A stretch of 64,000 nucleotides of DNA from Glycomyces harbinensis (lineage in GTDB: Bacteria > Actinomycetota > Actinomycetes > Mycobacteriales > Micromonosporaceae), in NCBI RefSeq assembly GCF_900101745.1, contig NZ_FNAD01000008.1:124001-188000 (forward strand), read 5' to 3'. The notes under the pieces were generated by a model. That model was given only the letters and a program-made list of their open reading frames with translations. It made no database searches and was not told where the DNA came from. Below are positions 5,180 through 6,409 of the stretch, piece by piece (within the stretch, counting starts at the first letter, position 1; each line of letters opens with the position of its first letter). The translations under genes and the position numbers were made by a program.

Positions 5180-5914
5180 GTGACCAAGTTGAACCAGATC
5201 ATCGCCATCGAGAAGAGCGTCAAGGCGAAGGCCGCCCGCGCGCTCGGCGACGCCGGACGCGAGCTGGCCAAGGCGCCGCTCCTGTCGGGCATCTCCCGGA
5301 CCTACCAGCCCAAGGACGAGGAGGGCGAGCAGCTGCCGCCCGAGTCGACGAAGGTGCAGCGGCGGGTCGAGGACCAGTTGCGCGAGGTCTCGGCGGCGAT
5401 GACGCGCCTGTTCGACGTCACGGCCACCAAGGACCGCACGAACGCGCTCGCGACGGCCGACATCGTCGTCGACGGCGAGGTGCTGGTCGCGGACATGCCC
5501 GTCACCTACCTGCTGTTCCTCGAGAAGCAGCTGGGCGAGCTGCAGGCCCTCGTGAAGTCGCTGCCGGTCCTGGACGCGGGCGAGTCGTGGACGTTCAACG
5601 AGGCCGCCGACAGCTTCGCGACCGACCCGGTGAAGACCGTGCGCACCAAGAAGGTCCCGCGCAACCACGTCAAGGCCGAGGCGACCGAGAAGCACCCCGC
5701 GCAGGTCGAGGTGTACTACGAGGACATCCCGGTGGGCTACTGGACCACCGTGAAGTTCTCGGGCGCGGCCCCGGCCAAGCGCGTCGCGACGCTCGCCGAC
5801 CGCCTGGACCGGCTCCAGACCGCCGTCAAGTTCGCCCGGGAGGAGGCCAACGCGACCGAGGTCGTCGATGAGAAGATCGGCGACAAGGTCTTCGGCTACC
5901 TGCTGGGCGACTGA
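5180..5914 (+). CDS. DUF7873 family protein
   Basis: A 244-residue soluble protein starting at GTG 5180 (MTKLNQIIAIEKSVKAKA). It matches from memory a widely conserved actinobacterial family of the same length; recognisable parts are LLSGISRTYQPKDEEGEQLPP (split here: YQPKDEEGEQ), the TRLFDVTATKD segment and KVPRNHVKAEATEKHPAQVE. The protein is highly charged with no membrane segment. It is monocistronic: promoter before it, hairpin terminator right after. Biochemical role is unknown. Confidence 0.88.
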   Translation: MTKLNQIIAIEKSVKAKAARALGDAGRELAKAPLLSGISRTYQPKDEEGEQLPPESTKVQRRVEDQLREVSAAMTRLFDVTATKDRTNALATADIVVDGEVLVADMPVTYLLFLEKQLGELQALVKSLPVLDAGESWTFNEAADSFATDPVKTVRTKKVPRNHVKAEATEKHPAQVEVYYEDIPVGYWTTVKFSGAAPAKRVATLADRLDRLQTAVKFAREEANATEVVDEKIGDKVFGYLLGD

Positions 5915-5926
5915 AACCCATGAACC

Positions 5927-5948
5927 CCCCTGTTTTGAGCGACAGGGG
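5927..5948 (+). terminator. Hairpin terminator after the DUF7873 gene
   Basis: CCCCTGT (5927-5933) pairs perfectly with ACAGGGG (5942-5948) across an 8-base loop, 12 bases after the stop codon. It separates this gene from the downstream RNA locus. There is no strong U tract, as is usual in actinomycetes. Confidence 0.55.
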
Positions 5949-5999
5949 TGGCGCGCAAGCGCCGACGACGCTGAAACTGAGATTCAAGTCGTAGCAGAA

Positions 6000-6081
6000 C
6001 GCGGTGGTGTTGGGGGTTCGAGTCCCCCTTCTCCGGCTAGACCGGCCGGTCGAATGGCCCAATCGGTAGAGGCGCACCGCG
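6000..6081 (+). pseudogene. Degenerate circularly permuted tRNA-like gene (copy A)
   Basis: The tRNA parts occur in reversed order. First the 3' half: anticodon-stem strand CGGTG (6002-6006), 5-base variable loop, T-stem GGGGG / loop TTCGAGT / CCCCC (6012-6028), acceptor strand from 6029. Then the 5' half: acceptor strand ending GAA (6052-6054), TG, D-arm GCCC..AGGC with GGTAG loop (6057-6073), and CACCG (6075-6079), which pairs exactly with CGGTG; the pairing extends to 7 bp. Defects: acceptor pairing is interrupted at 6032/6050-6051, the end reads G-CTA rather than NCCA, and no U33 can be placed, so a functional tRNA is unlikely. A GCAA-capped hairpin lies just upstream (5950-5963). Confidence 0.6.
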
Positions 6082-6144
6082 AAAACTCAGACTCTCGCTC
6101 CAGCTTCAGCATTCGCCACGCCGCGCGGTACCGCGAGTAGTTCC

Positions 6145-6224
6145 CTTTTGACATCGGGGCTGGAGGTTCGAGTCCTCCCCGCCGCACCACATGCGGCGGT
6201 AGCTCAATGGCAGAGCACGATGCT
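6145..6224 (+). tRNA. Circularly permuted tRNA gene, probable tRNA-Lys(UUU) (copy B)
   Basis: 3' half: anticodon-stem strand CATCG (6152-6156), variable loop GGGCT, T-stem GGAGG / TTCGAGT / CCTCC (6162-6178), acceptor CCGCCGC (6179-6185), A73 and encoded CCA (6187-6189). After only CAT (6190-6192) comes the 5' half: acceptor GCGGCGG (6193-6199, 7/7 pairs), TA, D-stem GCTC/GAGC (4/4), D-loop with GG, A26, and CGATG (6218-6222, 5/5 pairs with CATCG). Every canonical feature is present but the order is permuted at the anticodon loop. Joining G6222 to C6145, C6223 to T6146 or T6224 to T6147 all give loop CUUUUGA, anticodon UUU; A73 and G1-C72 fit lysine. G37 is atypical. Flanks pair outside the stem (6126-6134 with 6238-6247). 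Expression and processing are unproven. Confidence 0.7.
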
Positions 6225-6280
6225 AGCAGCAGATTCAGTGGCTACCGTCAAGGTCCGCAGCGGTCACTATGTGGCACATG

Positions 6281-6314
6281 GCGGCCCGGTGTCGAGGTCA
6301 ACGACCCGGGCCGC
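6281..6314 (+). terminator. Hairpin closing the tRNA-like locus
   Basis: GCGGCCCGG (6281-6289) pairs 9/9 with CCGGGCCGC (6306-6314) over a 16-base loop, 57 bases after the second tRNA half. It is the likely 3' boundary of the transcript. Confidence 0.5.
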
Positions 6315-6351
6315 ACCTCCGTCTCCGGCGCACGCGCCGCGGACAAGGGTG

Positions 6352-6380
6352 TTGCACCCGCTTCGCCTCGGCCCCATAAT
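6352..6380 (+). promoter_or_regulatory. Strong consensus-like promoter
   Basis: TTGCAC (6352-6357), a 17-base spacer and CATAAT (6375-6380) make one of the best sigma-70-type promoters in the window. It points at the gene starting at 6410. Confidence 0.6.
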
Positions 6381-6409
6381 GGTCGGCATGGACGACTACA
6401 GAAAGGGCG

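Follow-up and report, generated by a model that had tools for sequence, protein, structure and literature searches.

A conserved RNA with permuted tRNA-like domains downstream of DUF7873 genes in actinobacteria and phages

Introduction

Can a bacterium encode a transfer RNA (tRNA) whose two halves stand in reverse order? The question is raised by a 64,000-nucleotide stretch of the 6.17-Mb genome of Glycomyces harbinensis (contig NZ_FNAD01000008.1, positions 124,001 to 188,000 of the forward strand), which we call the window and number from its first nucleotide. At 6152-6222 the 3' half of a tRNA precedes its 5' half, and the original prediction took this segment for a canonical circularly permuted tRNA gene with a UUU anticodon, of a kind for which it knew no bacterial example. 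We find that the segment is not a tRNA gene. It is the second of two permuted tRNA-like domains, A and B, in a structured RNA of about 390 nucleotides (about 5925-6314) that lies directly 3' of a gene of the DUF7873 family, and at the level of sequence comparison both the conservation of this structure and its link to DUF7873 are shown. In place of a doubtful claim of a permuted tRNA in bacteria stands a conserved system of two parts, a protein gene and the RNA that goes with it, which bears up to two tRNA mimics; the system spans actinobacteria and phages of actinobacterial, proteobacterial, and cyanobacterial hosts. With some reserve, we think it likely that RNA and protein form a two-gene module in which the RNA serves as a scaffold resembling the bacterial Y RNAs.

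The permuted cloverleaf

The permuted order was borne out by the sequence and by pairing across the genus. Domain B forms a full cloverleaf from an anticodon stem (6152-6156/6218-6222), a T-stem (6162-6166/6174-6178), an acceptor stem (6179-6185/6193-6199), and a D-stem (6202-6205/6213-6216). The stems are kept in relatives, with 293 of 294 cells paired in the window and 13 other Glycomyces sequences (anticodon stem 69/70, T-stem 70/70, acceptor 98/98, D-stem 56/56). ARAGORN found no ordinary tRNA in the window, and no Rfam family reached its gathering score there. What stands is the circular permutation of a tRNA fold; what fell is its description as a canonical permuted tRNA gene.

The anticodon did not hold up. 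UUU occurs in only one of the 14 Glycomyces sequences, that of the window, ten others have UGG at those positions, and the last three have three other triplets. There is no defined and conserved anticodon loop, as the 7-mers vary among the 14; the anticodon stem leads, with no closed loop of seven nucleotides, into a conserved arm of the larger RNA, and the stretch following the 5' strand of domain B, CTAGCAGC, is identical in 12 of the 14. An outer helix of 6126-6134 with 6238-6247 had been proposed to extend the anticodon arm as a precursor stem would; it can be drawn but is poorly conserved, its nine pairs forming in 13, 12, 5, 6, 3, 11, 11, 11, and 1 of the 14 sequences. The helix that does continue the arm is 6137-6140/6242-6245. 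Each of its four pairs forms in all 14, and three of them show compensatory or one-sided changes, with variants such as GUAG/CUAC, GCAG/CUGC, GAAG/CUUC, and similar. A normal tRNA-Lys(UUU), which the prediction had asked about, is also at hand: of the 48 tRNA places in the genome ARAGORN names 47, including tRNA-Lys(UUU) and tRNA-Lys(CUU).

Two further points told against the tRNA-gene reading. The unit goes with DUF7873 and is usually accompanied by a second one, and domain A had been missed. Moreover, bacteria were already known to have a permuted tRNA fold, that of the Y RNA YrlA; in superpositions, its crystal structure (PDB 6CU1) matches tRNAs as a circular permutation (PMC11472068).

Architecture of the RNA

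We are confident of the structural identity of the RNA, two arms each capped by a permuted tRNA-like domain (Table 1). Each cap consists of a T-arm, a closed acceptor stem, and a D-arm, attached to its arm via the anticodon stem. RNAalifold was applied to the 51 actinobacterial sequences having two units, which leaves out one-unit sequences, that of the window included. From 5' to 3', the consensus consists of two hairpins, the second of them small, then arm I topped by domain A and arm II topped by domain B, and last a hairpin that resembles a terminator; in the centroid the first hairpin is largely missing. In the window the first of these hairpins, H1, begins 12 nucleotides past the DUF7873 stop codon.

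Domain A is built from a T-stem (6012-6016/6024-6028), an acceptor stem interrupted by a small internal loop (TTC+CCGGC/GCCGG+GAA), a D-stem (6057-6059/6071-6073), and an anticodon-type stem (6000-6006/6075-6081). The pairing of arm I, seen in the consensus folds, did not emerge from the separate alignment A4. In seven loci, from some Glycomyces and Streptomyces, domain A is swapped for other hairpins without a clear D-arm (L004, L008, and L009; L015, L018, L031, and L037). Arm II is matched at 6115-6265, with 64.7 bits, by R1, the model that we used to search for the RNA elsewhere.

Table 1. Positions of the DUF7873 gene and of the parts of the adjoining RNA in the window.
Feature	Positions	Strand	Basis
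DUF7873 (PF25283) protein gene	5180..5914	+	244 amino acids; Pfam 370.7 bits against a gathering score of 27
5' hairpin H1 (CCCCTGT/ACAGGGG), start of the RNA region	5927..5948	+	Sequence; hairpin in the consensus fold of 51 actinobacterial sequences
Small hairpin H2 (GGCGC/GCGCC)	5950..5963	+	Sequence; consensus fold
Arm I, GCTGAAACTGA... paired with ...GACTCTCGCTCCAGCTTCAGC, bearing domain A and the conserved core 6088-6110	5970..6110	+	Two consensus folds
Permuted tRNA-like domain A	6000..6081	+	Sequence; YrlA 22.9 bits; R1 26.3 bits; alignment A4
Arm II, enclosing helix 6137-6140/6242-6245 under domain B	6137..6245	+	Paired in 14/14 Glycomyces
Permuted tRNA-like domain B; acceptor loop 6186-6192 ACCACAT, CCA at the canonical place	6152..6222	+	Sequence; pairing in Glycomyces; YrlA and R1 matches
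Strong 3' hairpin, terminator-like, without a T run	6281..6314	+	Sequence; consensus fold

Covariation

For arm II with domain B, alignment A3 (23 diverse sequences) has 35 pairs, 30 of which change on both sides; 96.1% of its cells are paired, a value that none of 500 shuffles reached, and controls slid along the alignment gave 37-44%. Within A3 there is free covariation in the domain B acceptor stem, and the elbow letters of the T-loop and D-loop are conserved. Arm I was aligned in 31 sequences including the window (alignment A4), and 11 of the 16 pairs in its T-, acceptor, and D-stems have compensatory changes; neither lower arm I nor the anticodon-type stem emerged from this alignment.

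On a single joint alignment, separate folds were computed for 60 sequences from actinobacteria and 20 from viruses or phages; they have 94 and 71 pairs, respectively, 53 of them common to both. These sequences were selected by a strict core motif that 70 of the 170 loci lack. The motif is absent from 61 of the 80 viral loci, and looser rules still miss 30 of these 80 and in some cases picked wrong places.

Distribution and link to DUF7873

In Glycomyces the module is found at one chromosomal place. For wider comparison we used two samples fetched by DUF7873, the best 80 of at least 507 relatives (loci from named genomes) and the best 80 of 340 viral stretches, so DUF7873 is present in every one of them because of the way they were obtained. 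We also found the family in 73 phage records (Vibrio, Gordonia, Rhizobium, Klebsiella, Serratia, Arthrobacter, Pseudanabaena, Rhodococcus, and Microcoleus). In the nine phage records that we examined it is annotated as a hypothetical protein, and in six of them the next 400 nucleotides carry no annotation; in Ziko, Centimanus, and K479 this interval contains small genes or tRNA calls.

In relatives, the DUF7873 gene is followed on its 3' side by one or two permuted units. A permuted-tRNA scanner run over up to 560 nucleotides 3' of the gene was positive, with one unit or more, in 80 of 80 actinobacterial regions (the window included), 8 of 9 phage regions, and 68 of 77 viral regions, counts that leave out L070 and three viral loci as too short; two or more units were present in 51, 5, and 31 of these, respectively. 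As controls, the scanner reported units in 27 of 1,575 stretches elsewhere on the same loci and, when the region itself was read on its reverse strand, in 9 of 163. Rfam likewise gave a YrlA match of 31-38 bits right behind DUF7873 in five of the nine phage loci.

The link also holds when the RNA is the query. We searched 246 genomes of the class with R1, under stricter filters that lose weak matches, and found a match of at least 64.7 bits in 20 of the 21 genomes that have DUF7873; the 21st (G197) has only fragments of the gene. Every such match lies at most 430 nucleotides downstream of DUF7873, and none occurs in any of these genomes without it. Among 83 phage or viral loci (all 89 minus the six used to build R1), 65 have a match of at least 46.5 bits within 770 nucleotides downstream of the gene. 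A pattern of the RNA core, itself composed from DUF7873-linked members, returned 24 viral stretches: 16 with DUF7873 143-409 nucleotides upstream on the same strand, one with DUF7873 misplaced, and seven without it on the stretch available. Nine of the 16 are contigs new to the analysis. Eight of the 24 are contigs that the DUF7873 search had already retrieved: seven belong to the 16 and one (L257, on the contig of L120) to the last seven.

At an expect value (E) of 0.01, some R1 match occurs in 40 of the 246 genomes, and many of the weaker matches form two classes, one adjacent to genes for TROVE (Ro60) proteins and one of 19 similar matches, of which the four examined are pairs of tandem tRNA-Asn genes. 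The former lie within 3 kb of TROVE in 19 of the 29 TROVE genomes; the three of these loci that we examined have YrlA scores of 56.2, 53.9, and 44.4 bits, all under the Rfam gathering score of 69, and are presumably the actinobacterial Y RNAs. Some other weak matches are domain A beside a strong match. At least one, of 48 bits (G078:C2:367252-367343, locus L190), has no such explanation and coincides with neither an ARAGORN tRNA nor YrlA at E 0.1. DUF7873 and TROVE occur together more often than expected (12 of 21 genomes vs. 17 of 225, Fisher p 1e-7), a result that we do not lean on because shared ancestry confounds it. Both proteins also have matches in a control genome, that of Deinobacterium chartae, and the DUF7873 family therefore extends past actinobacteria and phages.

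ARAGORN calls tRNAs within 2.5 kb of 45 of the 80 viral loci, 7 of the 9 phage loci, and 10 of the 80 actinobacterial loci, with a call inside the RNA region itself in 15, 2, and 5 of these, respectively. In 18 viral loci Rfam matched only tRNAs. In two viral loci (L095 3595-3659 and L102 3595-3661) the tRNA matches begin close to where the RNA ends on its 3' side, about 370 nucleotides after the DUF7873 match stops.

Comparison with known RNAs

At a loose threshold, an Rfam search of 5880-6400 gave two tandem matches to YrlA (RF02553), at 6133-6251 (34.0 bits, E 1.1e-5) and 5995-6099 (22.9 bits, E 0.017). Both span the whole model (positions 1-114), and both stay under its gathering score of 69 bits. 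The DUF7873 RNA shares with YrlA the order of T-arm, closed acceptor stem, and D-arm, as well as entry via the anticodon-side stem, and since the three TROVE-adjacent loci examined above reach 44-56 bits with the YrlA model, we assign the tRNA-like domain to the Y-RNA type. It differs in usually having two heads within about 390 nucleotides, whereas PMC8394870 gives 90-150 nucleotides for YrlA. It also differs in its partner gene, DUF7873, in its frequently encoded CCA, and in its sub-threshold scores. No match to TROVE (PF05731, Ro60/Rsr) was found in the window's genome, nor in 9 of the 21 DUF7873 genomes. We reject a true Ro60 Y RNA for the window on this lack of a TROVE match, and we do not file the RNA as a Y RNA because no Ro60 was found and the YrlA threshold was not reached. 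Relative to Y RNAs, the type of domain is known; the different partner, the larger architecture, and the wide distribution in phages are new. The literature that we searched, with preprints and most subscription papers outside it, contained no paper on DUF7873, on an RNA linked to it, or on a two-headed RNA of this sort. Jumbo phages encode TROVE proteins in a small subset of cases, as stated in PMC7824862. YrlA-like RNAs upstream of TROVE genes in actinobacteria were seen at L193 (1-1000), L191, and L192; L193 apparently has several similar copies in a row, one of which ARAGORN calls tRNA-Glu.

As of 2014, permuted tRNA genes numbered 34, in six algae and one archaeon, and they depend on bulge-helix-bulge motifs and the tRNA-splicing endonuclease (PMC3978253). 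The genes of the algae and of the archaeon T. pendens share with our RNA a 3' half that comes first, a short intervening loop, and a complete cloverleaf; they differ from it in that the DUF7873 RNA has no conserved anticodon, is part of a larger RNA, and is linked to a protein gene. Permuted, two-piece transfer-messenger RNA (tmRNA) likewise has a tRNA-like part in permuted order with an acceptor loop, its pieces being held together by base pairing. The two RNAs have this permuted part and its loop in common; the complete D-arm sets the DUF7873 RNA apart. No tmRNA family was among the seven Rfam matches of 5880-6400 up to E 10.

Possible function and alternative explanations

The RNA probably works like a Y RNA, as a scaffold rather than as a working tRNA. 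YrlA forms an RNA-decay complex with Rsr (Ro60) and polynucleotide phosphorylase (PNPase), and tRNA enzymes modify its tRNA-like domain, according to PMC8394870. In our model the RNA would be transcribed, DUF7873 would bind its conserved arms or core, and the tRNA-like caps would dock a protein that recognizes the tRNA elbow, much as YrlA tethers PNPase to Ro60, or possibly another tRNA enzyme, so that the RNA would act as a tether or gate. We put this tethering mechanism forward tentatively. In phages the module often stands among tRNA genes, and its role during infection may therefore lie in the processing, repair, or decay of tRNA or RNA. The scaffold model gives DUF7873 a first testable role and would extend Y-RNA-like tRNA mimicry to a setting without Ro60.

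The strongest competitor, which we nevertheless consider unlikely, is a processed version of the RNA in which the acceptor loops would be cleaved by RNase P and 3' enzymes to leave nicked heads with free CCA ends, held by base pairing like two-piece tmRNA and perhaps aminoacylated. The encoded CCA, to which the original prediction had drawn attention, is at its canonical place in the window; this is not general among relatives, where it directly follows the discriminator position (at 74-76) in 86 of 226 non-identical units. This count exceeds all 2,000 runs with shuffled loops (mean 8.7, maximum 20) and is inflated by shared ancestry, with 50 of 169 distinct loops carrying CCA. The first loop base is mostly A in domain A (73/95) or T in domain B (83/135), which would also suit processing, as would the conserved elbow letters. 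However, 140 of the 226 loops have no CCA at that place, some scanned loops are 20-76 nucleotides long, and the free covariation of the domain B acceptor stem means that there are no fixed identity pairs. The CCA may reflect an origin of the domains in true tRNA genes, possibly those of phage tRNA clusters, or else a loop that is cut and an end that is used. If the heads were cut to free CCA ends, the RNA would represent a novel type of split tRNA-like molecule. The fullest form of this idea is a ribonucleoprotein widespread in phages and bacteria, with DUF7873 bound to a two-headed RNA whose cut permuted heads present two exposed CCA ends at once to the tRNA machinery or the ribosome; in our view it is quite unlikely.

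We regard as rather unlikely that the heads are tRNA decoys, absorbing tRNA-targeting toxins, nucleases, or modification enzymes and mainly protecting phage or host tRNAs. The tRNA calls near the viral and phage loci would fit such a role, and competitive inhibition of a tRNA nuclease has been discussed for YrlA in PMC7790460. Against it, the RNA has no closed and conserved anticodon loop, so anticodon nucleases would have no clear target, and both the link to DUF7873 and the conserved arms are left unexplained. It is quite improbable that the region acts in cis, regulating or stabilizing the DUF7873 mRNA through autoregulation by the protein. Its position on the same strand shortly 3' of DUF7873, in the 20 genomes and 65 phage or viral loci, and the closeness of the window's first hairpin to the stop codon would be expected in that case, but the size of the RNA and its two tRNA mimics seem beyond what autoregulation would need. 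A cis-acting role is compatible with the scaffold model.

A genuine permuted tRNA-Lys(UUU) gene, needing a cut and ligation in the anticodon loop, would account for the perfect permuted cloverleaf with its CCA. We reject it as highly improbable because the anticodon is unconserved and ordinary tRNA-Lys genes exist, and the cloverleaf is embedded in a larger conserved RNA. Least probable of all is a remnant of two tandem identical tRNA genes without their outer halves: tandem tRNA-Asn genes do mimic the pattern (four of four loci examined among 19 such R1 matches) and such a pair may be its evolutionary origin, but ARAGORN finds no tRNA in the window although such pairs trip R1, which contradicts tandem tRNAs as the present state, and the compensatory changes across relatives argue for selection on the permuted fold. 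These tandem tRNA-Asn genes (L187, L188, L189, and L194) score 32 to 44.5 bits to YrlA and are a trap for permuted-tRNA scans.

The DUF7873 gene and its surroundings

The open frame of the window's DUF7873 gene reaches up to 4997; homology begins only at 5180, where relatives also start. Its closest relatives are from Glycomyces, with 94% identity to the protein of locus L002. The protein matched only its own Pfam entry, with no NCBIfam, PADLOC, or PHROGs match at E 0.01. A fold search gave no PDB match at E <= 0.001 and no Ro60-like match, the latter proving nothing, and a sequence search of the PDB reached at best E 0.11. One fold match in a viral library, A0A514TZW7 (E 3.8e-4), was not trusted, its TM score being 0.22 by query length. 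One viral contig (L143, 2501-3226) has an in-frame stop codon inside its DUF7873 stretch.

Of 11 other reading frames of the window that we compared, seven (893aa_657, GNAT_3388, o6881, MT_7823, m8739, o11457, and o13864) are present in 8 to 11 of 13 Glycomyces loci, and outside the genus only one weak match was found, in 1 of 67 loci.

Three individual phage or viral loci stood out. In a Microcoleus phage (L087, 3941-4150) a HEARO RNA of 129 bits occupies the expected place of the DUF7873 RNA, and the scanner found no permuted unit there. In Gordonia phage Phendrix (L083, 1072-1600) Rfam gave a tmRNA match of 89 bits that is missing from the annotation of its record. Finally, a viral contig (L153, 4597-5107) has three more R1 matches of 34-40 bits 3' of the main one, which are possibly further tRNA-like units.
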